A stretch of DNA of 45,551 nucleotides from a virus. A program made the position numbers and the translations under genes. Each line of letters starts with the position of its first letter. Within the stretch, counting starts at the first letter, position 1. The stretch lies in the IMG/VR virus record IMGVR_UViG_3300026544_000007, positions 1-45,551 of that record. One strand, written 5' to 3'. Under the pieces are notes generated by a model. The model made no database searches and was not told the DNA's origin. It saw only the letters and a program-made list of their open reading frames with translations. This document shows, piece after piece, positions 12,006 through 45,551 of the stretch.

Positions 12006-12014
12006 AAGCCTCCT

Positions 12015-14498: not shown

Positions 14499-14499
14499 A

Positions 14500-14697: not shown

Positions 14698-14713
14698 ATC
14701 TAATCTCCTTCTG

Positions 14714-14728: not shown

Positions 14729-14731
14729 CTA

Positions 14732-14908: not shown

Positions 14909-14946
14909 TAAGTCTCCTTATTTATATTAACTCAAGTCTTTCTTAT

Positions 14947-14965
14947 CTATACTGGTCCCTTAATC
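14947..14965 (-). promoter_or_regulatory. Phage RNA polymerase promoter (one-base insertion)
   Basis: Minus strand reads TTAAGGGACCAGTATAG, one A longer than consensus upstream of the GGG. Predicted start G at 14947. It overlaps the stop of the 207-aa gene. Confidence 0.7.
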
Positions 14966-15583: not shown

Positions 15584-15600
15584 ACTACATCTCCTTTAGA

Positions 15601-17547: not shown

Positions 17548-17561
17548 GTTATTCTCCTGAG

Positions 17562-17576
17562 TCTAACAGTGTTAGA
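17562..17576 (-). promoter_or_regulatory. 15-bp dyad before primase-helicase
   Basis: Perfect dyad, six bases before the AGGAG of primase-helicase. It also supplies the TAA stop of the preceding basic protein. Confidence 0.75.
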
Positions 17577-17784
17577 CTTTTGTTAATGCCTTTAGAAAGG
17601 CTTGAATATCACTCATAGGAGTTGAATCTTCCTGTCTAACACTGTTAGACTCTTTGTATTCTCCATGCTTGATTGCCCGTTCTATTCTACGATTCCGTCT
17701 TATTAGTTTCTTATCCTTTGACTTGCTGGTCTTTAAACCTTTTACCTTGCGTGACTTAATAGGGATAACAGAACTAATCTGCAT
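17572..17784 (-). CDS. Small, very basic protein
   Basis: 70 aa from the ATG at 17784, chosen for AAGGAGG 6 nt upstream. The middle (KSRKVKGLKTSKSKDKKLIRR) is densely basic and fits nucleic acid binding. A 15-bp dyad is read through in frame as SNSVR. The last 14 codons begin with an ATG that has its own dyad and AGGAAG upstream, so a 14-residue internal product (MSDIQAFLKALTKV) is possible. Function unknown. Confidence 0.65.
   Translation of the reverse strand: MQISSVIPIKSRKVKGLKTSKSKDKKLIRRNRRIERAIKHGEYKESNSVRQEDSTPMSDIQAFLKALTKV
17635..17649 (-). promoter_or_regulatory. 15-bp dyad inside the basic-protein gene
   Basis: Perfect dyad located within coding sequence, 59 bp from the next copy at 17562-17576. 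AGGAAG and an in-frame ATG follow, repeating the hairpin - ribosome site - start layout. Confidence 0.7.
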
Positions 17785-21004: not shown

Positions 21005-21034
21005 TGCTATCCTTTATTAGTATCTTAATAGATT

Positions 21035-21061
21035 ATAGCCCGATAAAGTGTACCGGGCTAT
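21035..21061 (-). other. Hairpin between early genes
   Basis: ATAGCCCG and CGGGCTAT form an 8-bp stem. No T tract follows on either strand, so it is more likely an mRNA processing or stability element than an intrinsic terminator. Confidence 0.5.
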
Positions 21062-21074
21062 TAATAATCATAAC

Positions 21075-21452
21075 TTATCTTTCCATAAAAACTACATCGG
21101 CAGCACCAGCCGTCCAGTTTGCTTCTCTTCTTACTTCTTTAAACCCATGTCTTTCATAGAAAGAAACAAGATAACCATCAAAACAATCTAAGTTATTAGC
21201 TCCCAGTATAACAGCGTTAGACAATATCTTATCACCATTACCTTTAATAGCTGAGAAGACACTTGTTAGTTCACCGGATAGACTAACAGCAAATCCCATA
21301 AAAGCAGGATTACCGGATAAGTAATAGCTTGCAGTATCATCTTTAATTTCATTCCATGCAGTAGTATTATCTCTTATCACTTTATAGTTTTCCTGTACAA
21401 ACTTTAAAGCTTCAATAAATTCATTCTTTGATACTTTTCTAAAGTCTTTCAT
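21075..21452 (-). CDS. Small GNAT-like protein, early
   Basis: 125 aa. The end, LDCFDGYLVSFYERHGFKEV followed by NWTAGAADVVFM, matches small phage proteins usually labelled acetyltransferase: FYERHGF is the closing GNAT helix-strand motif, though the acetyl-CoA loop is weak (KGNGDK). Made before the phage polymerase acts, it may modify or inhibit a host factor; T3 and T7 early genes do this, but the target here is unknown. AAAGGAA precedes the ATG. Confidence 0.65.
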   Translation of the reverse strand: MKDFRKVSKNEFIEALKFVQENYKVIRDNTTAWNEIKDDTASYYLSGNPAFMGFAVSLSGELTSVFSAIKGNGDKILSNAVILGANNLDCFDGYLVSFYERHGFKEVRREANWTAGAADVVFMER

Positions 21453-21465
21453 GATAATTCCTTTA

Positions 21466-21645
21466 TTAAACTGATAGTATTGTAATGATTATAAGGTTAA
21501 CTAAAGCCAAAGCTGCTAAGTTAATCCAGTAACTGATACCTCGTTGTTGTTGTAATTGCTCAAGCTGTACAGGTTCAGGTTGTTCAAGTATCTGCATTAG
21601 CTTATCAGGATAAAGTCTTCCTATAATATCTAAGTATTCATCCAT
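21466..21645 (-). CDS. Small early membrane protein (59 aa)
   Basis: Starts MDEYLDIIGRLYPDKLMQIL, has a Gln-rich linker (EQLQQQ), and ends with one membrane segment (INLAALALVNLIIITILSV). It fits a C-tail-anchored inner membrane protein. AAGGAA lies before the ATG. Such early microproteins often exclude other phages or inhibit host enzymes; no specific role is supported. Confidence 0.7.
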   Translation of the reverse strand: MDEYLDIIGRLYPDKLMQILEQPEPVQLEQLQQQRGISYWINLAALALVNLIIITILSV

Positions 21646-21667
21646 TTTATTTTCCTTTAAAGCTTTA

Positions 21668-21691
21668 AGGGCTTAGCATAAACTAAGCCCT
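21668..21691 (-). terminator. Hairpin after the 275-aa early gene
   Basis: AGGGCTTAG, loop TTTATG, CTAAGCCCT: a perfect 9-bp stem directly after the stop codon. The tail (TAAAGCTTTAA) is only partly T-rich, so termination may be leaky, as suits genes downstream in the same early unit. Confidence 0.6.
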
Positions 21692-21699
21692 GGTTATAA

Positions 21700-22527
21700 T
21701 TATTTAAGTTTCAGAGCTTTAATCATAGCATCCTTAGCAGCTTTTAAGGCCTTAGCTCCTTTAGGACACGTTTTAGCATTAAAGATGATTGCCATAGTTC
21801 TGTATCTTTCATTGATCTTGCTTGCCGTTGCTGTCTCTTCAATACCTAATACAAGGTTAGGCTTATTTGCTTCAAACTGAGGTAAGTACACTGTATTAGC
21901 TACTTCCTTCTTAGGTGCTGCTTTTTCAGCTAACTTACTTTCCAGTTCAGATATCTTCTTTAAGAGTTTAACATTCTGTTTAATAAGCTTATCAAGCTGA
22001 TTTTCTGTATCAGTTTCGGAACCAGTATTAGGGCTGAGATTGGAAGCAGCATTAGAAGATGCAGTATCAGAGTTGGTAGTAGAAGATGCAGTATCTTTTA
22101 TAGTATCTTTCATTACCTTAGTAATAGGATCTGACTTATCTTTAATAGTTGGAAGTGCTGGAACAGAAACCTGTTTAATAGTTGCAGGTTTAGCAGTAGC
22201 AAGAAGGGCATTAACAGCCTTAGTAGTTAGTTTACCCTTAATTGCTAAGTCTTTGGCTTCTTCTTCAATCTTACTAAAGACCTCTTTAGATGCGTGAACC
22301 AAGAGGTTTAGGACTCTCATACTGCAACCTTTAAACTCTGATACTTCTCCAAAGTCATTATAGATTTTAACCAAGTTGTATGCTTGAGCTTTCCGAACCT
22401 GGCAAGCTGTATTAGCCCACTCAATCCAATCCTTAGCAGGTCTTGAATCTTTCTTAAACATTTCTAAAGCTTCGGACAATAGCTGTCCAGCTTTGAAGTG
22501 GGCATCTGTAGCAGCTTGGATGTGCAT
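21700..22527 (-). CDS. DUF3102-like protein with degenerate J-like C-terminus
   Basis: 275 aa. Residues 1-90 (AGQLLSEALEMF, WIEWANTACQVRKAQAYNLV) resemble the DUF3102 or helix-turn-helix style segment of phage and plasmid proteins. A Ser/Thr/Asn-rich linker (about 145-175) and a coiled coil (about 178-205) follow. The C-terminal 55 residues (LVLGIEETATASKINERYRTMAIIF...) follow a J-domain layout but have FNA where HPD is required. The start is uncertain: the ATG lacks a close ribosome site and the frame is open 22 codons upstream. Function unknown. Confidence 0.7.
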   Translation of the reverse strand: MHIQAATDAHFKAGQLLSEALEMFKKDSRPAKDWIEWANTACQVRKAQAYNLVKIYNDFGEVSEFKGCSMRVLNLLVHASKEVFSKIEEEAKDLAIKGKLTTKAVNALLATAKPATIKQVSVPALPTIKDKSDPITKVMKDTIKDTASSTTNSDTASSNAASNLSPNTGSETDTENQLDKLIKQNVKLLKKISELESKLAEKAAPKKEVANTVYLPQFEANKPNLVLGIEETATASKINERYRTMAIIFNAKTCPKGAKALKAAKDAMIKALKLK

Positions 22528-22583
22528 CTTTATAGCCGTTGCAATGCTATCCAGCTTTTCCTTATCTAATTTGTTATCATTTG

Positions 22584-22898
22584 TTAGGTATCCTTGATAG
22601 GCTTAGTAGGCTTAGGAGATGCAGTAGCTTTAGTAGGCTTAGTAGCTTTCAAGTCCTTAAAGTAAGTCTTGATGATGTTTTCTTTGATATGGCCTAATGC
22701 TTGTACATAAAGTGTCTTAGTTCTAATAGATGCAGTATCTTGTAAAGATACTTTGATTCCAAGTGGAAGACTTTTAGTATTCCATAGAACTAATTTAAGG
22801 GTGCTTTTAGCATCTTTTAATAAGCCATCTTTGTTAAGATCATCTGTAATCTGATTGATTGCTTTTCTGATTGCTTTCAAGTCTTCAAGTTCTGTCAT
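22584..22898 (-). CDS. First early gene, hypothetical
   Basis: 104 aa. N-terminal helices (MTELEDLKAIRKAINQITDDL), a middle beta part, and a Lys/Pro/Thr-rich tail with repeated KPTK (ATKPTKATASPKPTKPIKDT). It is the first gene behind the sigma70 promoter, with TAGGAGA before the ATG. First early genes of T7-like phages usually counter host defence or metabolism (T7 gp0.3); the sequence itself gives no family. Confidence 0.75.
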   Translation of the reverse strand: MTELEDLKAIRKAINQITDDLNKDGLLKDAKSTLKLVLWNTKSLPLGIKVSLQDTASIRTKTLYVQALGHIKENIIKTYFKDLKATKPTKATASPKPTKPIKDT

Positions 22899-22928
22899 GA
22901 TAAGTCTCCTATATGATTCAAGTAGTTG

Positions 22929-22945
22929 CCTGGATTTGTTCCAGG
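22929..22945 (-). other. 5' leader hairpin of the early transcript
   Basis: CCTGGA, loop ACAAA, TCCAGG (6-bp stem) just downstream of the -10 box. Being at the extreme 5' end, it may protect the early mRNA. Confidence 0.6.
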
Positions 22946-22954
22946 ATTAGCTAC

Positions 22955-22983
22955 AAGATACAGGAGTTAAAAAGCAATGTCAA
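22955..22983 (-). promoter_or_regulatory. Host sigma70 early promoter
   Basis: Minus strand TTGACA (22983-22978), 17-bp spacer, TATCTT (22960-22955). Perfect -35 and near-consensus -10 at ideal spacing. It starts about 50 bp before the first early gene and should be the entry promoter for the early block including the phage polymerase. Confidence 0.88.
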
Positions 22984-23254
22984 ACGATTTTTCAAGAAAG
23001 TTTAAATAAAGTTTTAAGTAGTTGGAATCATTAAGATAAAGAATTTAAGAATCAATTAGAATTGTCAACGAAGTTGGAACTAACTATTGATATTACCAAG
23101 GTATTAGATAGTAAGAACTAACAATTACTATTGTACTGACAAAGTCAGAACTACCGAGTATTAACAAGAACTTAAGCCAAGTCAGTCAAGGAAGGAATAG
23201 TAGTACCAACAAAGTTGGAGCTACCTGAGAGAGTTTGAGTAGGCTAACAGAGAA

Positions 23255-23299
23255 CAGTACTGGCAAGCAGGCTTAGCAGCCAAGCCAGTACTGGCAAGC
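23255..23299. repeat. Direct repeat CAGTACTGGCAAGCA
   Basis: Two copies 30 bp apart (start 23255 and about 23286); the second lies in the perfect 12-bp palindrome GCCAGTACTGGC at 23284-23295. Confidence 0.75.
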
Positions 23300-23439
23300 A
23301 CAGATGACTTTTCTTGCTTTTCCTTACTTTCTTAGTCTAACCTAACTCTTTCTGTCACTCTCCAAGGTTATTGCTGTAACTTACCAAGGTAGCTCAAGCT
23401 CAAGCTATTAGCTCTGCCTAATATTATTACTAAAACGGA

Positions 23440-23483
23440 CAGACCTGGATACTTAATATGGTTAGGTTTATTAAGTTAGGTCT
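23440..23483. repeat. Imperfect inverted repeat
   Basis: AGACCT-ggat-ACTTAATA pairs with TATTAAGT-t-AGGTCT around a ~10-nt loop. This is the longest hairpin in the middle of the gene-free tract. Confidence 0.65.
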
Positions 23484-23544
23484 GGATTGCTTAGTTAGCT
23501 CCAACGAAGTTGGTATACCAAGGCTTGTACTGTAACGCTCCAAG

Positions 23545-23657
23545 GCAATTGTTAGTTATTGCTGTCTTATACTGTATCACAGCGATTGTTAGTTATTGCT
23601 GACTTCGTCATTAAGGATAGCAATTGTTAGTTATCCCTGACTTCGTCAGTAGCCCAA
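23545..23657. repeat. Three iteron-like direct repeats
   Basis: 20-bp units GCAATTGTTAGTTATTGCTG at 23545, 23582 (one change) and 23620 (two changes), spaced 37 and 38 bp. The second and third also share the following TGACTTCGTCA dyad. Regular spacing recalls replication iterons or packaging recognition arrays. Confidence 0.8.
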
Positions 23658-23821
23658 GGCTTTATCTGTCAGCTCCAACTTTGTCGGCAATGCCTAACTC
23701 TCTAAGGCCCAAGGGGGAAAGTTGGACAGAGCTTGAAGGGAGAAGTGCCGAACATAGCCAGATCAAAATTTCAATCTAAGATCCGCTCTGCTAAGATCTT
23801 AGTAGCTCTGACTTCGTCAGT

Positions 23822-23871
23822 CTAAGAACTCTCCAAGATAATCTCTTAGGACTACCAAGGAGAGTTCTTAG
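23822..23871 (-). other. 13-bp inverted repeat after the last late gene
   Basis: CTAAGAACTCTCC and GGAGAGTTCTTAG are perfect complements around a 24-nt loop, 8 bp after the stop of the secreted protein gene. No T tract follows, so it may be a processing or 3'-end protection element rather than an intrinsic terminator. Confidence 0.7.
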
Positions 23872-23878
23872 TAATTAC

Positions 23879-24424
23879 TTAATCAAGTAAACACACCTTA
23901 TTAGAACCCATAAAAATAGAAGCACTTGTAAGGGTAGGAAATAAATTCTTATCTATAGAGAATACCATCCATACAGTTGACTCACTTGCAGTTCCAGTTA
24001 CAGCATTAACAAAAGAAGATGTAGTTTCCATCTTTACAGTCCTAATAGAGTAACCAGGATATTGTATATACTCACAACCTCCTGTCAGATATTTACCAAC
24101 TAATCCATTATATAATCTAATCTTAGTGTTAATTGAATCACCTACATTAAGATTACTACCAACAGCAATAATGACCCAAGCTGGTACTTGCCTATCTATA
24201 CCATTACTTGTATATAATCTATAGCCATCATAAACTCCTGCACTAATAGCACCAACAGTGAAGTTTTGAAATAGTACCTCAGTAGATGTAGTAACAGACG
24301 TAGTCTCACCACACACTATATCAAAAGCTGCCTCTGCATCTCCAATAGTTGTAAGCAAAGTAGCTAAAGCTATTAGTGTACCTGCAATTGCTGTCAATAC
24401 TTTCTTATTCTTCAATAATTTCAT
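23879..24424 (-). CDS. Secreted protein with signal peptide, unknown
   Basis: 181 aa. A classical signal peptide: MKLLKNKK, a hydrophobic core (VLTAIAGTLIALATLLTTIG), then AEAA, a good signal peptidase I site. The mature part is beta-rich with Cys near residues 38, 117 and 178 (a possible disulphide). The ATG at 24424 is 4 nt after GGAGG; a TTG one codon earlier is too close. It is the last gene before the gene-free tract. Export suggests action in the host envelope, for instance lysis or exclusion; no family recognised. Confidence 0.75.
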   Translation of the reverse strand: MKLLKNKKVLTAIAGTLIALATLLTTIGDAEAAFDIVCGETTSVTTSTEVLFQNFTVGAISAGVYDGYRLYTSNGIDRQVPAWVIIAVGSNLNVGDSINTKIRLYNGLVGKYLTGGCEYIQYPGYSIRTVKMETTSSFVNAVTGTASESTVWMVFSIDKNLFPTLTSASIFMGSNKVCLLD

Positions 24425-24434
24425 CAATCCTCCT

Positions 24435-24698
24435 TTACTTTAATTTAAAACTAGAACACCTATAGGACTTCTCAAATACATCCTTCTTAACCAGATACTG
24501 ATCTTCCTTACTTAATCTTACAATATAATCACCAACCTCTGCTTTCTTACCACCACAGTTGAATATCATAAGCTCCTGTATCGCTCCAACTTTGTTGGTA
24601 TACTTGAACTCATCTCCCTTTACTTTCTCAATCTTTGCATCTTTCTCAATCTTACAAGCAAGACGTTTCTGAGGGATTGAAACATATTCTCTTAACAT
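24435..24698 (-). CDS. Small conserved-type phage protein
   Basis: 87 aa. The C-terminal half, VGDYIVRLSKEDQYLVKKDVFEKSY, follows a pattern I associate with small phage proteins of unknown role (GDwivr ... ypvkpdiFekty). A dyad of the gene-free tract family (24586-24598) lies in the coding sequence and reads TNKVG. AAAGGAA precedes the ATG. Function unknown. Confidence 0.7.
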   Translation of the reverse strand: MLREYVSIPQKRLACKIEKDAKIEKVKGDEFKYTNKVGAIQELMIFNCGGKKAEVGDYIVRLSKEDQYLVKKDVFEKSYRCSSFKLK

Positions 24699-24711
24699 TA
24701 ATATTCCTTTC

Positions 24712-24990
24712 TTATACGTTTATATAAGCTACTGTTACATTAGTATCAGAGCTTGATGTACCTACAAGTTTAGCCTTAAAAGATACACCAGTAGCAAACT
24801 CAAGTCTGCATATACTAATATTATCTCCCGGTGCATAAGTAAAAGCTACTGCTTCTCCTGCACCTATATCAGCCGTAATAATTACCATTCCATTTACAAG
24901 CACTCCTGTAACAGAAACTATAACTGGACCTGTTGCTTCTACGATGCTTGATTCAGTATCTACTGTTGCATCTGTAATAAGTTCTGTCAT
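24712..24990 (-). CDS. Small beta-rich protein, possibly virion-associated
   Basis: 92 aa, acidic, Val/Thr/Gly-rich with alternating strands (VIVSVTGVLVNGMVIITADIG, TNVTVAYINV) and no lysine-rich segment. It looks like a single immunoglobulin-like or virion decoration domain. GGGAGG precedes the ATG. No family recognised. Confidence 0.65.
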   Translation of the reverse strand: MTELITDATVDTESSIVEATGPVIVSVTGVLVNGMVIITADIGAGEAVAFTYAPGDNISICRLEFATGVSFKAKLVGTSSSDTNVTVAYINV

Positions 24991-25002
24991 CTTACCTCCC
25001 TT

Positions 25003-25446
25003 TTATGGCCATCTTACTGTACTAACATAGCCTATTTCTTCTGTTATAATTCCTTCTTCTGTTTCTATCTCTATAGCTCTATTACCTTTAAGTTCAGGAA
25101 GAAACCAGAACAAACCCCATCCTTCTCTATCTGTTAGTTCTCTTCCTACATAAACAGCTTCAAGCCCAAGCTCTCTTATAGTTATAAGACTATCCCATCT
25201 CTCTTGCTCTACTATCTCTCTTAAATCTTTTTGCAACTCAGGTCCAATAATAGCATTTACTACTACTTTGTTAGGTAAAGAATCTAAGATGCCAGCAATA
25301 GTAGGATAAACAAGTACAGAGTTATCTAAGATATCTAAAGCCATAAGATCATTATCAGGTATAAGAATACTATTATAATCTTTGTGTTGATCACTATTTA
25401 AGAGAAAGTAAGCTTGCTGATTTAGTTCTTGCTTACTTAAATCCAT
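25003..25446 (-). CDS. Hypothetical protein
   Basis: 147 aa, acidic, with a mixed alpha-beta pattern and aromatic GWGLFWFLPEL near residue 110. It follows a broken virion-type gene with a 10-bp overlap and has AAGGAG before the ATG. It could be an accessory of that neighbour (chaperone or second subunit), but that is inference. No family recognised. Confidence 0.7.
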   Translation of the reverse strand: MDLSKQELNQQAYFLLNSDQHKDYNSILIPDNDLMALDILDNSVLVYPTIAGILDSLPNKVVVNAIIGPELQKDLREIVEQERWDSLITIRELGLEAVYVGRELTDREGWGLFWFLPELKGNRAIEIETEEGIITEEIGYVSTVRWP

Positions 25447-25751
25447 TCTGGCTCCTTCTTAAAACTTATATGTTTTATGTATTGGGCATGTGGATTGTAT
25501 CGGGATAAGAATAGAAAATCAACAGGATTAAAGCTACCTACAAAGTCTCTAAGACTACCTTGTACTGTTGTATCAGATTCTACTGTAATCTGTAGCTTAG
25601 GTACTGTATAATCAGGATGCTCACCATAGTTAGCTGTTATTATATATTCTTTACCTGTATTATAATTAATATCAGCAGCAGAAGATAAGTTAACAGCATC
25701 ATAGAACTTAAGCTTGCCAACTGAATCATGAAAAAAGAAATGAGTGTCCAC
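25437..25751 (-). pseudogene. 3' part of a frameshifted virion-type gene
   Basis: 104 codons with no ribosome site; the first start-like codon is a GTG inside the upstream gene. The text HFFFHDSVGKLKFYDAVNLSS continues the lectin-like C-terminus of the preceding frame. Removing one base from the A6 run at 25731-25736 joins both frames into about 404 aa. It is read here as the C-terminal quarter of one protein, displaced by one base. Confidence 0.75.
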
Positions 25752-26652
25752 TACTTAACATTTCTGAAGCTGTAGTAGAAAGCTGAGTATAATCAAACAT
25801 TGGTTTCCACAGAACTCGTAAAGAACCCTTAGCTGTACCAGCAACTTCACCTTCTAATGCTGTAACAAGACCTGGTAGATTATCTAAGTCCCACCTATAT
25901 CCGTAGGTTGGAGTTGAATAATTACTTGGGACAGCCACCGATGCACCTTCACTCTTAACGTATGGGAGTAAATATTCTTTATTAGTTAAGTTAGCTCCAA
26001 AGTGGTATGTTGTACCTAAGTCAGAAGGATTTATATATCTTTTTGGGTATATGCATATATAGGTACAACCTACAGGAGTTCTAAATGATACTGCTTCTCT
26101 GCTAAATTCCTCTGACATATCAGTATAAGTAGAAGATGAAACAATCCAAGCTGCATTAGTCTGATCATATATAGCATAAGATAAAGAACTTGATGTACCT
26201 AATCTTACCCACTGAGAGAATACATACTCAGTATCTTCTGTTACTGTAAATAAACCATAGCAATACTGTGTCCCACTTGTGAGTTCAATTGCATTAGCAC
26301 TATAACCTCCTTTAGGATCTGCATAAACAGGATCACTTGGAAGAAGACTTGCATCAAAGTCAAGTTTTAAGTTCTCACTATTTAGTAGTCTTTGTGTATA
26401 AGCGCCATAACATAACAATCCATCCTTCTCAATAACAGGTTCATTAATACCAAAAGTAGCTCCATCATATCCAACACGGCCAGCAGCTAATCCTGTAATT
26501 GACATCTTTTCACCAGATACTAAATCTGTAGGTGCAATACCTTCTTTGAAGTCACAATAGAAATTATACTTACTCTTATCAAACGCAGAGGCAGCACAGG
26601 TTAACTTATCTTTAAGTGTATTCTTTAAAGGTTTCTTTAGCAGTTTGAACAT
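25726..26652 (-). CDS. Virion-type protein, N-terminal part of a frameshifted gene
   Basis: 308 aa as written. It starts MFKLLKKPLKNTLKDKL and has beta-sandwich-like segments (YGAYTQRLLNSENLKLDF, YCYGLFTVTEDTEYVFSQWV, LRVLWKPMFDYTQLS), the layout of phage proteins with a carbohydrate-binding or concanavalin-like module placed near fibres. The frame ends at 25726 right after a T6 run, and the sequence continues in the next frame. AAGGA precedes the ATG. The role, perhaps receptor or glycan binding, is inferred. Confidence 0.7.
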   Translation of the reverse strand: MFKLLKKPLKNTLKDKLTCAASAFDKSKYNFYCDFKEGIAPTDLVSGEKMSITGLAAGRVGYDGATFGINEPVIEKDGLLCYGAYTQRLLNSENLKLDFDASLLPSDPVYADPKGGYSANAIELTSGTQYCYGLFTVTEDTEYVFSQWVRLGTSSSLSYAIYDQTNAAWIVSSSTYTDMSEEFSREAVSFRTPVGCTYICIYPKRYINPSDLGTTYHFGANLTNKEYLLPYVKSEGASVAVPSNYSTPTYGYRWDLDNLPGLVTALEGEVAGTAKGSLRVLWKPMFDYTQLSTTASEMLSSGHSFLFS

Positions 26653-26668
26653 ACAATCCTTTCTTGTA

Positions 26669-26688
26669 AGGGCCTACTTAAAGGCCCT
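26669..26688 (-). terminator. Hairpin after the 95-aa gene
   Basis: AGGGCC, loop TTTAAGTA, GGCCCT on the minus strand, 13 bp after the stop codon. The tail (TTACAAGAAA) is a weak T tract, so termination may be partial. Confidence 0.5.
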
Positions 26689-26701
26689 ATATTAGGTTGG
26701 T

Positions 26702-26989
26702 TTAAGCAGGTGTAATAGAATCCGATGCAGTATCCTCAGCAGCAGTATCCTGTCTCCACCATACATCATCCTTAGCTGATCCAGCAGCCACTACGAGAAC
26801 AAGCTTAGAACCTGTAGTTTCTTTCATCAAGTAAATAGAACCTTCTCTTTTACCAGATACATCTGCATCATTTACATCTGCATCAATGTCTGCAATCTCA
26901 GCCTGAGTTACTACAGAGACCGGCAGAGCTGCTACAGCTACTACCTTTGCTACCGGCTGAGAATCACCAATCTTGTTTGAATATGCCAT
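26702..26989 (-). CDS. Small head-fibre-like or decoration protein
   Basis: 95 aa, Ala/Val/Asp-rich. The second half, GSIYLMKETTGSKLVLVVAAGSAKDDVW, follows the pattern of short capsid fibre proteins in which a glycine-led strand, a value strand, and a serine/alanine-glycine-Trp turn alternate; the C-terminus is SITPA. GGAGG precedes the ATG, and two phage promoters at 27028 and 27165 lie just upstream, so it should be strongly expressed. The family call is tentative. Confidence 0.6.
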   Translation of the reverse strand: MAYSNKIGDSQPVAKVVAVAALPVSVVTQAEIADIDADVNDADVSGKREGSIYLMKETTGSKLVLVVAAGSAKDDVWWRQDTAAEDTASDSITPA

Positions 26990-27027
26990 CCATACCTCCT
27001 ATTATTATAATTATTAGTTTCTATTAT

Positions 27028-27045
27028 CTATACTGGTTCTTAATT
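27028..27045 (-). promoter_or_regulatory. Phage promoter variant (AATTAAGAACCAGTATAG)
   Basis: Same AAGAA variant as at 18182. Predicted start G at 27028, about 40 bp before the 95-aa gene. Confidence 0.65.
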
Positions 27046-27179
27046 AGAGAGAACAAGAAGCACAGTAGTAGCTTCACTTGTAACTACTTAATGCTCTAAC
27101 ACTGTTAGACTCTCTTATACTACTATACTCTCTTGTTATTTCTTTTCTTTCTTTTCTCTCTGTCCTATACTGGTCCCTA
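27040..27179. repeat. Promoter cassette, copy 2 of a ~138 bp direct repeat
   Basis: Nearly identical to 445-584 (one base shorter in the pyrimidine-rich run). It holds a promoter, purine leader and dyad in the same order. The two copies lie about 26.6 kb apart and could recombine. Confidence 0.9.
27095..27109 (-). promoter_or_regulatory. 15-bp dyad in promoter leader
   Basis: Perfect dyad, same position in the cassette as 499-513. Confidence 0.7.
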
Positions 27180-27182
27180 AAT
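27165..27182 (-). promoter_or_regulatory. Phage RNA polymerase promoter
   Basis: ATTTAGGGACCAGTATAG, predicted start G at 27165. First promoter after the large terminase gene, feeding the last late genes. Confidence 0.82.
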
Positions 27183-27206
27183 ACTTGCACCTTTAATTTC
27201 AGTAAC

Positions 27207-29042
27207 TTACAGTGGACTTCTTTTACGCATCGAACCGAACTTGTTTCGGCCTTTATTTGGTTTGTAAGAAGAAGTACAAACCTCAGTCATCCAAGCTCTT
27301 CTGCTTACTGGATCTTTCCAAGCATTGATACCAGCTATTTGTTCCTTGCGTCTTCTGGCTTCCATCAGCACTTTAGTATCAAAGTCAAGCTTTTCAACTA
27401 CGTACCGGACAGCACTTGCCAGAGCGTCCAGTCTATCATCGTGCCTCAAACAGCCCCTATCTCTCGTTATTAGGGTCATTTGATGGAGAAGGCGATACGT
27501 ACCCTTCATTTCTGCTGGATATGCTTGTATCGAAGTATAATCATCCTCTATCACATCAGGAGATATAATCAATCTGTGCGATGTTAGTAGTGGTTCCAGT
27601 GTGTCAATAATCCTTAATTCCTTTTGACCTGATTCCCAGGTCTCTTCAATGTTAACTGGCCACTCTTCCCGATTAAATAAAGGTTTAAGCATACTTGTGA
27701 ATGCTCCATTACCAAAGTTCTTTTCTATCAATACTGTCTTTGCTTTAGTGTTTCGTGCGATTCTTACCAGTTTTAATAGCGATTCTTCTTCAAAGCCACC
27801 CCTTACCCCTCCTATCCTTAGAATGTACACGTATGCACCAATTAAGCCTATTACAGCGTATCCTGTTTCATCACCATTCTTTCCGCCACCAGCCGGGTCA
27901 ATATACATAACCCGCTTTTCAAAAGCCCTGAATTCATACTCTTGCAGCATACCCCTGTAGAGTTTGTATTTTCCATTAACAGAGACGCTCTGATATAGAT
28001 TTGAGGGCTGATTAGTCCAGACGGGTAGTACGGGTCCCGTTTCAGTAGAATAGTCCTGTACGATTAAATTTCGTAGTTTTAAAGGGTATCTCTCTTCATC
28101 CGTTAGTTTAGTGTTAAGCATAAACTGTAATTGAAATTTAGCAGCACCCATGCTTAGTTCTTTATTTAAGAGTGTTTCTTCATCAAACATTTCAGGACAA
28201 GTACACTTACCTTGTAAGCCATCAAGCCCAGCTCCAACTCTTAGATCAGGATTAAGTATCATATCCTGTTGCAACATAGGTGCAAGCATATCCCCATAAC
28301 TACTTTCTTGCTCATACGTTGGGTATCTTCCTGTCCAGATACGAATTACATATCCACGTCCAGGCAGATTATTATAAATTGATTCAGTTGTCTGAGGTGT
28401 ACCAAGGTAAATAATCTCACCTTTAGAGCATACTGATTCAAACTCTCTTGTCAAGTCTTCAAGTATTTCTCTTGTTGTTACGGATCTTGAGTTCTTAGTG
28501 GATTCTATATCATCGGCTATCAGAATATCAGCCCTTGAACCCTGTATATTAGAGTCTACACCTAAGCATTTAATGCTTGGAGACTTATTAACACCTTTTA
28601 GAACCCAATGTATATCGTACCCCTCTATAGAGCTTCTATCTCCATTGCTCTTATCTGCTCTTAACATCCACAGAATATCCAAACCTTCAATGATTTGAAT
28701 AACAAAACTGGCAATATCTTTAGACATTTTACCACCAGCAGACACAATTAAGATAATTAATTTTGGATTATGTATAAGCATAAACACAGCATATATGGCA
28801 GTTAAAGTTGTTTTAGCCTGTCCTCTCTGTGCTTGTACCATACGAAATTGTGGTCCAACCAATAACCATTTGCAGATATCAGCTTGAACTCTATTAAGAT
28901 CAGGAGAGCCTGGTATCAAAGAACTGATACATGTTTGTGAAAAAAGCAGGAAACCCTCTATATTAAGCGGGAAGGTTTCCTGTACTTCTTTTAATGCTGC
29001 CCATCTTTCAAGCTGTCTGTCTTCTGACATAACTCTGGGCAT
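27207..29042 (-). CDS. terL: Terminase large subunit (T7 gp19-like)
   Basis: 611 aa (T7 gp19: 586). The ATPase has a deviant Walker A, AQRGQAKTT at 71-79, and Walker B ILIADDIES. The RNase H-type nuclease shows MYIDPAGGGKNGDETGYAVIGL, then TVLIEKNFGNGAF, then HDDRLDALASAVRYV. It pumps DNA into proheads and cuts concatemers. The gene order small terminase - microprotein - terL resembles T7 genes 18-18.5-19. AAGGAAG precedes the ATG. Confidence 0.95.
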   Translation of the reverse strand: MPRVMSEDRQLERWAALKEVQETFPLNIEGFLLFSQTCISSLIPGSPDLNRVQADICKWLLVGPQFRMVQAQRGQAKTTLTAIYAVFMLIHNPKLIILIVSAGGKMSKDIASFVIQIIEGLDILWMLRADKSNGDRSSIEGYDIHWVLKGVNKSPSIKCLGVDSNIQGSRADILIADDIESTKNSRSVTTREILEDLTREFESVCSKGEIIYLGTPQTTESIYNNLPGRGYVIRIWTGRYPTYEQESSYGDMLAPMLQQDMILNPDLRVGAGLDGLQGKCTCPEMFDEETLLNKELSMGAAKFQLQFMLNTKLTDEERYPLKLRNLIVQDYSTETGPVLPVWTNQPSNLYQSVSVNGKYKLYRGMLQEYEFRAFEKRVMYIDPAGGGKNGDETGYAVIGLIGAYVYILRIGGVRGGFEEESLLKLVRIARNTKAKTVLIEKNFGNGAFTSMLKPLFNREEWPVNIEETWESGQKELRIIDTLEPLLTSHRLIISPDVIEDDYTSIQAYPAEMKGTYRLLHQMTLITRDRGCLRHDDRLDALASAVRYVVEKLDFDTKVLMEARRRKEQIAGINAWKDPVSRRAWMTEVCTSSYKPNKGRNKFGSMRKRSPL

Positions 29043-29044: not shown

Positions 29045-29128
29045 TTATTCTTCCTTAGAGTATCTGTCATAAAGAGAGTACCAACATAGGAATCCCCATA
29101 TACCAAACATAATATACCATAGTATCAT
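29045..29128 (-). CDS. 27-aa single-pass membrane microprotein
   Basis: Sequence starts MILWYIMFGIWGFLCWYSLY and ends DRYSKEE: one Trp-rich membrane helix plus a short charged tail. Its ATG overlaps the small terminase stop (ATGA) and GGAGGAGA lies upstream; its stop is just before the terL ribosome site. The space would otherwise be empty. In T7 this interval holds spanin genes 18.5 and 18.7, so a lysis role is possible but not shown. Confidence 0.6.
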   Translation of the reverse strand: MILWYIMFGIWGFLCWYSLYDRYSKEE

Positions 29129-29442
29129 CCTGTCTCCTCCTCTTCTTTAAAAGGTATTAACTTACCTTTTTGAGCTTCTTTAATTAACCTTAACTTCTTA
29201 CCAAGCTCTGTCTCTCCATTCTCAGATGCAGCAATAGCAGAAACTCCATTATACTCTACCCATTTCTGAATTGAAACTAAATCTCGTGAGTTAATAACTT
29301 CTAAGATTGTTTCTAATGCACCTAACTTTTGAAATTCTTCTGCCATTTTAAGCATAGCATCAAGTTTCATATTATGACAAGTTGTGATTAGTTTATGCAA
29401 TTCACTTATATCTTCTTCAGTTGCTGCTAATCGCTTGCTCAT
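29125..29442 (-). CDS. Terminase small subunit (T7 gp18-like)
   Basis: 105 aa from the ATG at 29442, which AAAGGAGG precedes; the frame begins five codons earlier. All-helical, with LAATEEDISELHKLITTCHN and a charged C-terminus (IPFKEEEETG). Length and position just before terL match small terminases of T7-like phages (T7 gp18: 89 aa). It would bind phage DNA and regulate the large subunit. Confidence 0.75.
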   Translation of the reverse strand: MSKRLAATEEDISELHKLITTCHNMKLDAMLKMAEEFQKLGALETILEVINSRDLVSIQKWVEYNGVSAIAASENGETELGKKLRLIKEAQKGKLIPFKEEEETG

Positions 29443-29453
29443 ACACCCTCCTT

Positions 29454-29681
29454 TCATTTAAGCTCTTTTCTTATTAGTTTTAATGTTTCATTTAAGGCTT
29501 CAATAGCTCCTGTATTTTTAGTCATTTGTTTTGTAAATTGTACCTTTAACTCTAACATGTCATATGTATCAGCTTTAGCTAACTTGAGAGACTGAACATC
29601 AGAATACAAGAGAACTAAAGCTGTACATATTGGAATCAGAACCGCTAAGATACAACTAATCCAAGCAGAACTTAGTTTCAT
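29454..29681 (-). CDS. Putative class II holin or membrane lysis protein
   Basis: 75 aa: one membrane segment at about residues 8-27 (ISCILAVLIPICTALVLLY) and then a charged coiled-coil-like region ending RKELK. Size and location match T7 gp17.5 holin (67 aa). An i-spanin-like protein is the alternative, as its C-terminal helix is long. It overlaps the small terminase frame start by 4 bp. Confidence 0.65.
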   Translation of the reverse strand: MKLSSAWISCILAVLIPICTALVLLYSDVQSLKLAKADTYDMLELKVQFTKQMTKNTGAIEALNETLKLIRKELK

Positions 29682-29683
29682 TA

Positions 29684-30661
29684 TTAGAAGTGAATACTTA
29701 GAGCAGCTTGGACATCACCAAATTCATTAGCGAAACTTGCAGTTTCACTTCCAGCAAAGCATAAACCAATAACTGGAGCTGTTCCTTTATAATCAATAAG
29801 AACTGATCCGCTGTCACCAGGTTCTACTATTGGATCTGTTTTTATCTGATTAATAAAAGTCTGAGTAATAGAAGTTCCATCACATTTAGTATATGCTACG
29901 TTAACAGCAGCATCAAGACCAGTAATATAACCATGAGTTACATTTGTGGTTCTTCCACTCTTTACAACTAAATCACCAATTAAAGCATAATTAGGTGTAT
30001 AATGTAATGGAGAAGCACCAGGGATATCATTAACATCTGAATCAAGAGTAGGGCAAACAAAGATTGCTGCATCTACTTTCTGATAAGAAGTTGCACCAAT
30101 ACCTACATAAGAATCAAGAATACCAATTACAGAAGCATTAGGATCATCAATGATTGAAGGTTGTAGTACAATATTGTGAGTTTGACATCTCCCCCAAGGC
30201 TGTGTACTTGAATCCACACCAGAGCAATAAGGTAGCACATGTGCGTTGGTCAACCCACATCTTGTATTACAACCATCTTTAAGAACATAACAACCAACTG
30301 TTCCTGCGCTTAAAGAACCATAAGGACCAATACTGATACCACCAGTGGGCGGTGTAAACTTCTCTCTTGGGTTATGCCACATAGCCTTTGCTGTATCTTC
30401 AACAACAATATCTGTTTTTACACCATTGATCATTTTAGGGATTCTATCTAATTTGGAGACATCTTCTTTCTTTTTAACAGCGACTGTAATACAGGGTTCA
30501 CCAGTGTTAATACCTCGAATAATCTTATTACCTACACATACAGAGGTTACATTTTCATTAGTCAACAGGTCAAGCTGATATTCTTTGTTAACATTTCTTG
30601 CTTTTTTAATCCTATCAAGTCCTTTTGTAATCTGTTCACTTACATTCATTTCTTTTCTCAT
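29684..30661 (-). CDS. Trypsin-like serine protease
   Basis: 325 aa. A chymotrypsin-fold catalytic triad is visible: His141 in TNAHVL, Asp197 in KVDAAIF, Ser284 in EPGDSGSVL. No signal peptide. The N-terminal ~100 residues carry an accessory region with GKIIRGINTGEPCITVAVKKK, like the leader of Nal1-type bacterial proteases. It lies alone behind a phage promoter, between tailspike and holin, a place normally given to fibre or lysis genes. It could process virion proteins, attack envelope or capsule-linked proteins, or aid lysis. GGAGGG stands 13 nt before the first ATG; a second ATG is at codon 5. Confidence 0.88.
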   Translation of the reverse strand: MRKEMNVSEQITKGLDRIKKARNVNKEYQLDLLTNENVTSVCVGNKIIRGINTGEPCITVAVKKKEDVSKLDRIPKMINGVKTDIVVEDTAKAMWHNPREKFTPPTGGISIGPYGSLSAGTVGCYVLKDGCNTRCGLTNAHVLPYCSGVDSSTQPWGRCQTHNIVLQPSIIDDPNASVIGILDSYVGIGATSYQKVDAAIFVCPTLDSDVNDIPGASPLHYTPNYALIGDLVVKSGRTTNVTHGYITGLDAAVNVAYTKCDGTSITQTFINQIKTDPIVEPGDSGSVLIDYKGTAPVIGLCFAGSETASFANEFGDVQAALSIHF

Positions 30662-30695
30662 AATAATAATAACCCTCCATCTTAATGTTAATTAT

Positions 30696-30771
30696 GCACT
30701 TGATACTATTAATATAACAAATCATAATCTTTTCAAGTGCATAGTGAATCTATAAAAGCCATCTTTTATAG
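30696..30771 (-). other. Two hairpins in the protease leader
   Basis: CTATAAAAG/CTTTTATAG (30750-30771, 4-nt loop) and GCACTTGA/TCAAGTGC (30696-30703 with 30733-30740). Both are in the 5' leader between promoter and protease ATG; no T tract, so structure in the untranslated leader is more likely than termination. Confidence 0.6.
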
Positions 30772-30782
30772 GTTTTAGTTAT

Positions 30783-30800
30783 CTATACTGGTCCCTAATT
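30783..30800 (-). promoter_or_regulatory. Phage RNA polymerase promoter (consensus)
   Basis: Exact consensus, predicted start G at 30783. It overlaps the tailspike stop and gives the protease, lysis and packaging genes their own transcript. Confidence 0.85.
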
Positions 30801-32356
30801 TACCTCGTCTGAACTTTCCAATAAATCCAGCACTGAGATACCATAGGTGCAGATGTATTAATAACAAAAGTTGTAGCTGTCATATTAGTAACCCACATAA
30901 AGAAACCACCTGAAACAGAACCTGTAGGATCTGTAGCATGTACTAAGCTTACATCATTTAGGTCTGGTGTGCTTGCAAGATTATGAGTAACTGTAACTGT
31001 TGAATTACCAGCAGTTATTGTAGCTGTCCCTGAATCTTCTGTATTATGCCCCCTGCAAGATGTTATCTTGAGTTGATTACCACTACCTACCAAGTAGTCA
31101 TCTATACCAGCTGTAAGATTACCAGTAACATTTACCCCAACTATTGAAATGTTAGTGCATGTTCCAAGGAATTGTATACCGTACTTCTGATCATTACTAA
31201 ATAAGCCACCATCTCCAAAGACTCCATTAGTTATGGTTAGGCCATCTATTCCATCACCTAATGTAAGTCCAGAGTATGTATTAGATGTTAGTTTGCTATT
31301 ACCCATACACTGAGTATTTGATATACTTAATGCTTCTATCTTATTACTAATAAGTATACCATGTGCATCATTATTTATAAATCTACCAGTAGTTATAGAG
31401 TTGCCAGATATTAGATCATCTGCTTGAGTATTTGTAATGTGCATACCATGTGTACCACAAGAAGCACCCCAACATCCCATAAATATATTTTCTTGTATTA
31501 GTCCTGTAGTAGATCCTGGCTGTATTAGCCAACCCTCAGCTACACATGAATCACATATAATAGTATCAAACCAATTAGCAACAACACGACCAGTGCTTGC
31601 TTCACTTGGATTCATATGAACACCAATCTGACAACTAAAAATATCAATTGTCCTAAAGAAGCATCCTGAGCAGTGTTTTAACAAAATACCAGCACCTGTA
31701 GTGTTTGCTATATTACCGTCAGAAATATAGATACCTTGAGCAATACCTCCTTCTGAAAAGTCTTCACCAATGATAATACCATTTACACCTGAGTTTATTT
31801 CAAAGTGGTGCATGTGATATAAGTATTGTCCACCACCAAAAGAACCTGCTTCAAATTGAACACCATAATATAAATTAGAACCAAGTGTTATGTTATCTAT
31901 ATTTATTTGATGTCCATTCATAACTTTAATTGCAGCCCCAGATGTCTTAGCTATACTACTTAATACCTGAATCTCACATAATCTACATCCATTAGTATTT
32001 GTTGTATATGAACCCAACTCTATGATATTACCGGCTGCAAAGGAGCAGTATATCTTTGTAGCATCTGCACCTTCACCTCTAAGTGTTACTCCATTACTTG
32101 TAAGTTTTAATGTTGCTGTTGTCTTGTATACACCTTTTGGCAAATAAACTGTACCACCAGTGCTGGATAAAGAGTCGATAGCATTCTGTATAGCTACTGT
32201 GTCATCTGTAGTAGCATCACCAACAGCACCATACTCTTTAGCATTAACACCGAAATCCGCTTTAATATATAGCTCATCAAAGTTATCATCAATTGCTTGC
32301 ATCATTTTCTGAGGTGAAGTATGTGTTGCTACATCATCAATTAGTATTTGTGACAT
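30800..32356 (-). CDS. Tailspike with pectate-lyase-like beta-helix
   Basis: 518 aa. Residues 1-30 (MSQILIDDVATHTSPQKMMQ...) nearly copy the start of the next upstream gene and look like a docking segment. Then KEYGAVGDATTDDTVAIQNAID and GGTVYLPKGVYK give the entry of a right-handed beta-helix of the pectate lyase 3 type, with repeated short strands to about residue 430, and a beta-rich C-terminal cap. Such spikes bind and often cleave capsular or O-antigen polysaccharide; the substrate and active site cannot be read. GGAGG precedes the ATG. Confidence 0.88.
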   Translation of the reverse strand: MSQILIDDVATHTSPQKMMQAIDDNFDELYIKADFGVNAKEYGAVGDATTDDTVAIQNAIDSLSSTGGTVYLPKGVYKTTATLKLTSNGVTLRGEGADATKIYCSFAAGNIIELGSYTTNTNGCRLCEIQVLSSIAKTSGAAIKVMNGHQINIDNITLGSNLYYGVQFEAGSFGGGQYLYHMHHFEINSGVNGIIIGEDFSEGGIAQGIYISDGNIANTTGAGILLKHCSGCFFRTIDIFSCQIGVHMNPSEASTGRVVANWFDTIICDSCVAEGWLIQPGSTTGLIQENIFMGCWGASCGTHGMHITNTQADDLISGNSITTGRFINNDAHGILISNKIEALSISNTQCMGNSKLTSNTYSGLTLGDGIDGLTITNGVFGDGGLFSNDQKYGIQFLGTCTNISIVGVNVTGNLTAGIDDYLVGSGNQLKITSCRGHNTEDSGTATITAGNSTVTVTHNLASTPDLNDVSLVHATDPTGSVSGGFFMWVTNMTATTFVINTSAPMVSQCWIYWKVQTR

Positions 32357-32368
32357 TATACCTCCTTA
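32269..32368. repeat. Duplicated gene start (copy 1)
   Basis: Closely similar to 32683-32784, covering the ribosome site and the first ~30 codons of both receptor-binding genes. A duplication kept for a shared docking peptide. Confidence 0.85.
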
Positions 32369-32773
32369 GAGTTTCCATTCTTTAGTGTATGATGCTCTAC
32401 CATCTGTTAGTTCATTTACCTGTGATGATGACATTACACCAGCAGCAGATGCTGTAGCCTCTGTGATAACTGCATCTGTTCCATCAGAGCTAACTACTGT
32501 AACAGAAGATACTGTATTTGTGACTGATAAGTCTGTTGATACATTCCCCTCTTTTGCTGTATTTGCAAGAACAGAGGCATTATTAGTTATTGCTGTATCA
32601 AGATCAGATATAGTTGAAGCTGTTTGTGTTCCAGTGTGATTTGCTCTATTTACTGCTGCTGTTAAATTTGTGATATCTGCTAAATATAGTTCATCAAAGT
32701 TATCATCAATTGCTTGCATCATCAGTTTAGGCGTTGTATGTGTTGCTACATCATCAATTAATATTTGTGACAT
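32366..32773 (-). CDS. Short tail fibre or spike-adaptor protein
   Basis: 135 aa. Starts MSQILIDDVATHTTPKLMMQ, the same segment as the tailspike, then NHTGTQTASTISDLDTAI, a tail-fibre repeat motif. It ends ASYTKEWKL, similar to the KWIL end of the next upstream protein. It probably forms a middle link or a second receptor-binding branch between the anchor and the spike. GGAGG precedes the ATG. Confidence 0.75.
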   Translation of the reverse strand: MSQILIDDVATHTTPKLMMQAIDDNFDELYLADITNLTAAVNRANHTGTQTASTISDLDTAITNNASVLANTAKEGNVSTDLSVTNTVSSVTVVSSDGTDAVITEATASAAGVMSSSQVNELTDGRASYTKEWKL

Positions 32774-32784
32774 TATACCTCCTT
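32683..32784. repeat. Duplicated gene start (copy 2)
   Basis: Partner of 32269-32368. Differences cluster around the codons for TSPQK versus TTPKL. Confidence 0.85.
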
Positions 32785-33286
32785 ATAGTATCCATTTTCT
32801 ATTATACATATCTGAAATATTAGCTACTGTGTTAAGTTGTTCAACTGTAGCTGCATCTGACTGATCAATACCATCTGCTAAATTAGTAAGTCTTCTATTC
32901 CCTGCATTAATATTATCTTTCCAATAATGATCATCTTGCAAGAATCCATCAGCAAGTTGTTGCATTTGATATAATGCTTTCAGGAAAGAGTTATTTAAAT
33001 TATCTGATCCAAAAGCATTACCTCTTGTAAAATCAGAATAAGTGCTTTCACTTCCTATACTTCTTCTTATTCTTACATAGTAGTCACTTGTAGGTGCTGT
33101 ATTAAATACAACATTATTATCACTTATTGTGTAGTCTGTATCAAGAATCTGAGTAGTAGACTCACCAGTAACTACATTTATAAGCTCAACAACAATATCT
33201 TCATCTTCAAAGTATCCACTCTCTGCTACGATAACATAGCTTAGTGTTACACCATTACCTTGAGTCTGACTAAAAGTTAACGACAT
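32783..33286 (-). CDS. Tail fibre anchor (T7 gp17 N-terminal domain only)
   Basis: 167 aa. It matches the N-terminal ~150 residues of T7 gp17: FSQTQGNGVTLSYVIVAESGYFEDEDIVVELI, then DYYVRIRRSIGSES, then DNLNNSFLKALYQMQQLADG. The long fibre shaft and tip are absent; the chain ends NISDMYNRKWIL. It should fix the receptor-binding proteins to the tail and leave binding to the two downstream proteins, as in modular klebsiella phages. AGGAGG precedes the ATG. Confidence 0.88.
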   Translation of the reverse strand: MSLTFSQTQGNGVTLSYVIVAESGYFEDEDIVVELINVVTGESTTQILDTDYTISDNNVVFNTAPTSDYYVRIRRSIGSESTYSDFTRGNAFGSDNLNNSFLKALYQMQQLADGFLQDDHYWKDNINAGNRRLTNLADGIDQSDAATVEQLNTVANISDMYNRKWIL

Positions 33287-38385: not shown

Positions 38386-38397
38386 AAGCCTCCTTTG

Positions 38398-38412
38398 TCT
38401 AACACTGTTAGA
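38398..38412 (-). promoter_or_regulatory. 15-bp dyad before the lysozyme-like gene
   Basis: Perfect dyad between the gp15-like stop (at 38413) and AAAGGAGG of the next gene. The only copy in the long late operon. Confidence 0.75.
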
Positions 38413-40587
38413 CTACATATATTTACTTAGTCCTCTTTCTTCCATATATTTCTTATACTCAGCTTCGGCTTTTTCAATATTATCCGATGCTACCTTTTGA
38501 TCCTTTTCCTTCTTCTTAGCTATGTAACTTTTAAGTGTGGAGAGTGGGACTGGTTTAGTAAGATAAAGATTAGCCCTGAAAGCTTTATTCCTTGCAACTA
38601 TCCTAACTGTTCCTTTCTTATTATCAACTTCTGGAAATACATCATCATTTTCTAATCCATTACCAGCAAGCATAGGTTCCCAGATATCTTTTGTACCTTC
38701 TGTATAAGCATCAAAGGCATCTTTAATCCAACCATTATTCCCGCCTGATCTACCCTTCATAGCGCCTTCAACGCCTAACTGTTGTGCAAGATATCTTTGA
38801 CTACCCTTAATCCATAAGTCTCCAACTTGAGTCCATCCCTTCTTGAAGTATTCAGTTACCAAGTCTATATTACTTTTTGAATCCGCCTCTGAGGATAAAG
38901 CTATCTGATTTCTTATCTGTTCTTCTAAATATGGTACTTGCTTATCTTCGAAGTCAGGATTCCACAGAAACTCAAGATTATCTCTAACTTCATCAACACC
39001 AGCTTGAATCTGTTTAGCAGATGCAAGAGGTAGGTTCCTGAAATTAGCTTGAGCTTGAGCAAGTGCTTGTCCATCAGACATACCACGATCACGATAAGAC
39101 ATAAAGTCTCTTATTACTCTGGCTTCTTTTCCTCTACCACCAAGTGCTTCTAAGTGTTGAATCAATGCAATAGGAGACATAGCTTCAATTAGGCCAATAC
39201 CTTCTCTCTCAGTATTCCCAAGGACTGGCTTACCCTGCTCATCCTTTTCTTCTCTAAATGCAACATTTGAAGTTGCAAGATTGTGTAATATATTAACAAA
39301 TGGAACTACTGTATCATTGTTTCTTACTGCCATATCAGCAACTCTTGATTGAGACTGCTTAGTAAGGACAGCTAATTGTGATTGCTTCTGTCCATCTGGT
39401 AAACCTTTTACAGCTTCTTCTGCTCTATCAAGTTCATCCTGGTATATACTTCTGTATGCAGCTTTCCTTGTCTTCTCTCTTATATCACCTGGGTCTATAG
39501 TATTAGGATTAGAGAGGATAGTTTTAGCCGTAGTTAATTCTGCCTCAGACGATCTTGCTTTATAGTAGTCAGTCCATATTCCACTAATAAAACCACGGGA
39601 GGCTGCTTCACCATTAGTTGCTTTATTCATCTTATCGAGCATTGCCATGCCATCTGCTATAAGAATCTCTCCATTTAAGATACCCTGTTTAATAGAGACA
39701 AGCCTTGTTGTCATAGCTACTGCTTCTGTACTTAAAGCTTCATTTACAAGTTTCTTCTCAAGAGTTTGTAGTCTTGCTGATCTGTTAAATAGGCTTGCTT
39801 TACGATCACCTGTCCACACCTTAGCAGCTTCCAATAAAGCAGGAGACTTTGAAGTAATTATTGCATTCTCAATTACATCATCTTTCTCTTTAGATGTGAG
39901 TTTTAGTGCCTTTAGCTTAAAGTCAAACGTATTAGCAAGTTTATCAGGTTCAAGATCTACTCCATTCTCTTTCATGAGCTTTGCTTGTTGAATAAGATAA
40001 TCTGTAGTAGAGTTTTTACCCTTCTCTATCATAAGCTTAATCTGCTCTGATTGTCTTGTTGCACTAAGTTGTGGCATCATTTCACGAAAAGCTAAAGGAA
40101 GTAGTTTCTGCATCTCCCTATCTTCTTGATAAGTTGAGTAATTCTTATTTATATATTCATCAGTATCCCTATACCTCTTTCTTATTTCAGCATCCCATTC
40201 ATCTTCGGTAAGATCCTGTTTAGCAAGTTCATTTAGTTCAAGCTGATGCTGCATAATTTTATCCTGCATTATAACTGCTGCGTGCGCTCTATACCCTGCT
40301 ACAGTAGCATCATCCGATGGACCAGCACCAGCAGTAGCAAGGGCTGTCTGAACTATCTTATCTTCTGCAATCTTTTTACTCATTTCAGTTTTGTAGGTAT
40401 CAGCCCCTACCTCAGCAAAACCTAAGAGTGAATCAATAATTTGTAAGCCTTGGTTACTTTTCTGAAAAGCTGATTTAGGTTTAATAACCTGTTGTTTCAT
40501 CTGTCTTGCTGGCTTTTGAAAGCGTGTATTAGGTCCCATTTGAAAGGGATTAGGTACAGCTTCTCTTGTGAGATTATTTTCTACCAT
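38413..40587 (-). CDS. Internal virion protein (T7 gp15-like)
   Basis: 724 aa (T7 gp15: 747). Mostly helical and charged, with N-terminal PNPFQMGPNTRFQKPARQMKQQV, a LLGFAEVGADTYKTEM segment, and a Lys/Glu-rich C-terminus (KKKEKDQKVASDNIEKAEAEYKKYMEE). Identification rests on size and position between gp14-like and gp16-like genes. It should form part of the ejected periplasmic tunnel. GGAGG precedes the ATG. Confidence 0.85.
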   Translation of the reverse strand: MVENNLTREAVPNPFQMGPNTRFQKPARQMKQQVIKPKSAFQKSNQGLQIIDSLLGFAEVGADTYKTEMSKKIAEDKIVQTALATAGAGPSDDATVAGYRAHAAVIMQDKIMQHQLELNELAKQDLTEDEWDAEIRKRYRDTDEYINKNYSTYQEDREMQKLLPLAFREMMPQLSATRQSEQIKLMIEKGKNSTTDYLIQQAKLMKENGVDLEPDKLANTFDFKLKALKLTSKEKDDVIENAIITSKSPALLEAAKVWTGDRKASLFNRSARLQTLEKKLVNEALSTEAVAMTTRLVSIKQGILNGEILIADGMAMLDKMNKATNGEAASRGFISGIWTDYYKARSSEAELTTAKTILSNPNTIDPGDIREKTRKAAYRSIYQDELDRAEEAVKGLPDGQKQSQLAVLTKQSQSRVADMAVRNNDTVVPFVNILHNLATSNVAFREEKDEQGKPVLGNTEREGIGLIEAMSPIALIQHLEALGGRGKEARVIRDFMSYRDRGMSDGQALAQAQANFRNLPLASAKQIQAGVDEVRDNLEFLWNPDFEDKQVPYLEEQIRNQIALSSEADSKSNIDLVTEYFKKGWTQVGDLWIKGSQRYLAQQLGVEGAMKGRSGGNNGWIKDAFDAYTEGTKDIWEPMLAGNGLENDDVFPEVDNKKGTVRIVARNKAFRANLYLTKPVPLSTLKSYIAKKKEKDQKVASDNIEKAEAEYKKYMEERGLSKYM

Positions 40588-45484: not shown

Positions 45485-45519
45485 GATTTCTTATTAAGAC
45501 TAATGTAATGATGAGCGGT

Positions 45520-45551
45520 GGGGGGGGGGGGGGGGGCTTTTTTCCCCCCAC
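45520..45551. other. Right window end with G17 homopolymer
   Basis: G17 at 45520-45536, then C, six T and six C. It mirrors the left end (GGTG, G run, C, T run, C run). No gene between this and the capsid start. Confidence 0.6.

Follow-up and report, generated by a model that had tools for sequence, protein, structure and literature searches.

What does a phage gain from a trypsin-like serine protease whose gene stands between its tailspike and terminase genes? The question is raised by an IMG/VR virus record of 45,551 bases (hereafter, the window), which codes for a T7-type RNA polymerase, DNA polymerase, primase/helicase, head-tail adaptor, scaffold, nozzle, gp14- and gp16-like internal virion proteins and the small (TerS) and large (TerL) terminase subunits. 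The polymerase and the packaging genes bear out the label "T7-like" given in the original prediction, but the nearest isolates are Colwellvirinae or other SP6-like phages, and in its gene content the window phage is SP6/Colwellvirinae-like. Its TerL is at most ~54% identical to those of isolates (53–54% for the best), the top ones being mostly Vibrio phages. Given the order of scaffold and capsid genes across the contig ends, the genome appears to be circularly permuted and nearly complete, and poly-G runs at positions 1–52 and 45512–45551 are likely a sequencing or assembly artefact.

The protease and its fold

The protease is encoded on the minus strand by an open reading frame of 325 amino acids that starts with ATG at position 30661 and runs to 29684; the plus strand across 29684–30661 contains many stops. 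Translation confirmed the predicted catalytic triad and GDSGS motif, with His141 in TNAHVL, Asp197 in KVDAAI and Ser284 in PGDSGS. PHROG 20754, annotated "protease", matched residues 24–323, nearly the whole protein, with an E-value of 2.6e-38. To our knowledge, no member of this PHROG has been studied, and none was found in any Autographiviridae isolate. The Pfam profiles Trypsin_2, Nal1_C and NAL1_N all scored below cut-off against the window protease alone (12.4 bits for NAL1_N, cut-off 27), but NAL1_N was detected at E ≤ 0.01 in 13 of 19 aligned sequences, as was Nal1_C. The NAL1_N-positive relatives in this set align with the protease along their length, and on this basis we assign a NAL1_N-type N-terminal domain to the protease itself.

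An AlphaFold model built with the 19 aligned sequences (pLDDT 78, pTM 0.81) showed a trypsin-like double barrel, so the chymotrypsin fold held up. When the model was searched with Foldseek, ranks 1–33 in the PDB were chains of rice NAL1 (8hau, 8pmm, 7y77 and others; best E 1e-14), followed by streptogrisin B (9e-11) and alpha-lytic protease, and the match to the NAL1/trypsin fold spanned the full length of the protein. The match to rice NAL1 takes in both a NAL1_N-like N-terminal domain and a trypsin-like domain (15–18% identity, TM-score ~0.6); unlike the phage protease, NAL1 (NARROW LEAF 1) is a developmental regulator of leaf shape in plants. Streptogrisins, alpha-lytic protease and HtrA share the trypsin fold and the triad but are secreted or periplasmic and lack the NAL1_N domain. 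In the BFVD fold search, only two viral proteins matched most of the length, one of them from Virus NIOZ-UU157. An HtrA/DegP identity was rejected, as there was no PDZ match and no transmembrane (TM) helix and the NCBIfam HtrA scores were far below cut-off. A PADLOC search gave no match.

A simple hydropathy scan revealed no TM helix in the protease, and a reading of its sequence revealed no evident signal peptide. The protein contains 10 cysteines, the highest count among the 19 aligned sequences, and five of these are private to it. Two cysteines flank an inserted loop right behind the catalytic histidine.

Relatives in phages and bacteria

IMG/VR was scanned with the motif V-x-K-x-G-R-T-[TS]-x-x-T-x-G, a pattern that leaves the triad outside. 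One scan retrieved 62 stretches, 47 of them encoding relatives, and a second retrieved 97, with relatives encoded in 74; relatives are present in ~120 IMG/VR contigs. They are only ~25–38% identical to the window protease; neither two scans of IMG/VR with peptide patterns nor one with a stricter DNA pattern yielded a close relative. Among 50,697 phage records, the sole detectable relative was in LR756508, an uncultured 484-kb phage, and none was found in ~2,550 isolate records that have the terminase in common with the window. Twelve plasmids and bacterial genomes from several phyla also carry relatives. One bacterial genome, that of Clostridium tarantellae (L021), holds 27 family matches (e.g., G012:C38, C50, C94 and C152). 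Several stand in tandem and some contain internal stops; the family has undergone a large expansion specific to this lineage.

In an alignment of 108 sequences, whose rows are partly non-independent, the triad is essentially invariant, so that its conservation also held up: the histidine is found in 105 of 106 ungapped rows, the aspartate in 108/108 and the serine in 106/106. A 40-row tree does not separate phage from bacterial sequences but intermixes them, with six changes between the two, at least two of which are forced by well-supported branches. The window protease groups with the phage sequences L046/L057 (support 84/80), though its exact place is unsure because its end branch is long (2.39).

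That the triad was kept despite an identity of 26–38% and such a long branch argues for selection on catalysis. We regard it as virtually certain that this is a genuine NAL1-like peptidase gene and, judging from the conserved residues, as quite probable that its product would be catalytically active. It could instead be an inactive remnant or a decoy that mimics an immune-effector peptidase without cutting. The protein does evolve fast, and some bacterial relatives resemble immune effectors; however, it has retained the triad, Asn139, the GRTT motif and PGDSGS, and we consider a decoy very unlikely.

L046, an IMG/VR phage, is 32% identical to the window protease by BLASTP, and both L046 and L057 carry the peptidase gene just upstream of that for TerL; unlike the window phage, they showed no detectable T7-type structural genes. 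TerL lies within ~1.5 kb of the peptidase only in the L046/L054/L057 lineage and in L072, too few phage relatives for this adjacency to be taken as a family trait, and no fixed gene neighborhood was found among the phage relatives. In one of them (L058:12359-14443, plus strand), an intein-like insert that carries a LAGLIDADG domain splits the protease right behind the catalytic histidine motif.

The locus in the window and in protease-free kin

The closest counterpart of the window phage is another IMG/VR contig, L002 (TerL 87%, gp16-like protein 83%, TerS 82%, gp15-like protein 79% and lysozyme 70% identical). L002 does not have the protease, nor do ten further viral contigs with kinship to the window, so virion assembly in this lineage can do without it, and the protease is very probably an accessory insertion. 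A maturation protease processing capsid, core or spike proteins might be expected from the position in a late operon. However, L002 has the same core proteins and no protease, no head-maturation or prohead protease family matched the window protease, its gene lies in the spike/terminase region outside the head module, and unrelated phages hold relatives in varied contexts. We give this role a very slim chance, and among the roles originally offered, processing of conserved virion proteins is thereby disfavored, while cleavage of a host protein and action at the virion or cell surface still stand.

A phage RNA polymerase promoter motif, WWWAGGGACCAGTATAG, occurs 10 times in the window against 0.14 copies expected. 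One copy, ATTAGGGACCAGTATAG (30783–30799, minus strand), stands at the end of the spike gene and is recognized by its recurrence and by its presence at the same site in relatives. In L002, L009 and L010, which lack the protease, the motif, with one to a few differences, directly precedes the homologue of the 75-amino-acid gene that follows the protease in the window. Contrary to what had been proposed, the promoter is therefore not the protease's own; the simplest reading is that it belonged to the ancestral operon. Between it and the protease lies a 121-nt leader (30662–30782, minus strand) with two predicted hairpins and a Shine-Dalgarno sequence, GATGGAGGG. This leader is missing in the relatives, whose promoter stands ~45 nt ahead of the 75-amino-acid gene. 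As read from these sequences, the protease and its structured leader would most simply have been inserted behind the existing promoter, and the protease is now the first gene of the operon that continues with the 75-amino-acid gene, TerS (29125–29457, minus strand) and TerL (27207–29042, minus strand).

The stop codon TAA of the protease gene is followed after 2 nt by the ATG of the 75-amino-acid gene (TAATAATG, 29679–29686, minus strand). No Shine-Dalgarno sequence is evident ahead of the latter in the window, while the protease-free relatives have strong ones before its homologue; we infer that this gene is probably translated by coupling to the protease. Its product (29454–29681, minus strand) is conserved, has one N-terminal TM helix and matched, weakly, only PHROGs of unknown function. 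The protease had been placed "between tailspike and holin". The tailspike is indeed its neighbor, but the holin has no database support: the 75-amino-acid protein may be called holin-like by analogy with the position of T7 gp17.5, and in Proteus phage PM 116, an annotated SP6-like relative, endolysin and holin genes come after TerL.

On the other side of the promoter lie the tailspike gene (30800–32356, minus strand; 518 amino acids, a pectate-lyase-like beta helix) and two short tail-fibre/adaptor genes (32366–33286, minus strand; 135 and 167 amino acids). The spike is unlike the 997-amino-acid spike of L002, and the spike module and the protease may have been exchanged together. The spike and the 135-amino-acid protein (32366–32773) begin with the same sequence, MSQILIDDVATHT.P. 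A 123-nt repeat (87%) specifies this sequence, which is a duplicated attachment peptide.

Two further repeats were observed in the window. A palindrome near AGTCTAACANTGTTAGACT occurs in eight copies against 0.01 expected (497–515, 5176–5194, 10358–10376, 14712–14730, 17560–17578, 17633–17651, 27093–27111 and 38396–38414); some copies lie just upstream of ribosome-binding sites, and the element is possibly an mRNA hairpin or an operator. A 116-nt repeat (444–559 and 27040–27155, 97% identical) lies beside two copies of the phage promoter.

Possible roles of the protease

We tentatively favor, with somewhat less than even confidence, a late accessory peptidase that acts in the cytoplasm on host protein(s). 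The phage RNA polymerase would make the protease late; it would stay in the cytoplasm, since it has neither a signal peptide nor a TM helix; its His-Asp-Ser triad would cleave a single host protein or a small number of them; and this cleavage would serve an accessory function in host takeover or counter-defence. An intracellular accessory enzyme is favored by the patchy spread, the lack of a signal peptide and the insertion behind a phage promoter. The phage relatives are scattered over unrelated phages in varied contexts, and in the tree they are mixed with sequences from bacteria. Counter-defence genes are mostly early, which makes the late position unusual. A survey of jumbo phages argues that patchily distributed peptidases are deployed against the host, while those for virion maturation track virion type (PMC7824862).

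The main rival to a host-directed enzyme is a virion-borne or spike-associated one that would cut a surface or exopolymer-linked protein at adsorption or after lysis. The gene lies directly behind the tailspike genes, and some phage relatives are fused to other modules, suggesting extracellular or virion use: L045:1637-7615 encodes a 1992-amino-acid fusion of the peptidase with long beta-rich fibre-like repeats, on a contig that also encodes a head-tail-adaptor-like gene; in L043:620-3271, the peptidase is joined to SpoIID and a glycosidase-like stretch; and L048:3551-5035 and L079:10654-12135 carry an extra, unassigned C-terminal module. In L140, by sequence reading only, the peptidase stands among tail-like genes. 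The cysteine richness of the window protease would also suit an oxidizing environment. However, the window protease has no signal peptide and no fibre anchor like the MSQILIDDVATHT... of the spike and the 135-amino-acid protein, a promoter separates its gene from that of the spike, and similar split-spike architectures occur in L005 and L009, which lack the protease. We therefore judge a virion- or surface-borne enzyme somewhat unlikely.

A part in lysis is suggested by analogy with LypC, a trypsin-like peptidase whose activity is required for lysis in the release of Caulobacter gene transfer agents; host lysis is lost in the S296A mutant of LypC but not in nuclease mutants (PMC13236601). By this analogy, the window protease and the adjacent 75-amino-acid membrane protein would promote lysis together. 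The probable translational coupling of the two agrees with it, as does the functional precedent of LypC itself, and bacterial relatives of 632–657 amino acids that, in the manner of LypC, join a peptidase to a DNA/RNA non-specific endonuclease match the phage protein. Further, no endolysin or holin was recognized in the window region after TerL (21000–27200), the place of the lysis genes in annotated relatives. Against such a role, no endolysin is evident by sequence reading in L002 either, nor was an endolysin or holin recognized in its stretch after TerL (11150–16000), and yet L002 has no protease. In the 40-row tree, the LypC-like proteins branch apart, in a distant clade of their own, and a search with PHROG 20754 was silent in a Caulobacter vibrioides control genome; filing the protease under LypC is supported by neither. 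An enrichment of small neighbors with a TM helix (13/42 vs 22/212, p 0.001) in a first set did not replicate in a second, independent one (8/46 vs 35/237, p 0.66), and the link to lysis cassettes was dropped. A lysis-promoting peptidase thus appears unlikely.

The LypC-like L017 and L024 have a related peptidase domain, triad included, followed by a C-terminal DNA/RNA non-specific endonuclease, whereas the window protease ends after the peptidase; the LypC of C. endophyticus also lacks the endonuclease (PMC13236601). No genes for LypA or LypB (CARD-peptidase and NLR-like ATPase) were found among the window open reading frames scanned. A more specific version of the analogy, in which an immune-effector peptidase of the NAL1/LypC type was adopted by the phage and, with the coupled 75-amino-acid protein, would effect or time lysis late in infection, is quite improbable; if true, a cell-death protease would have been turned into a phage lysis factor.

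NAL1-like peptidases were already known from plants and bacteria, and no phage role for them was described in the literature that we found. Their presence in so many IMG/VR contigs makes the family a widespread mobile accessory in phages, and the window phage and its protease-free relative L002 form a simple natural pair for studying what benefit the protease brings.
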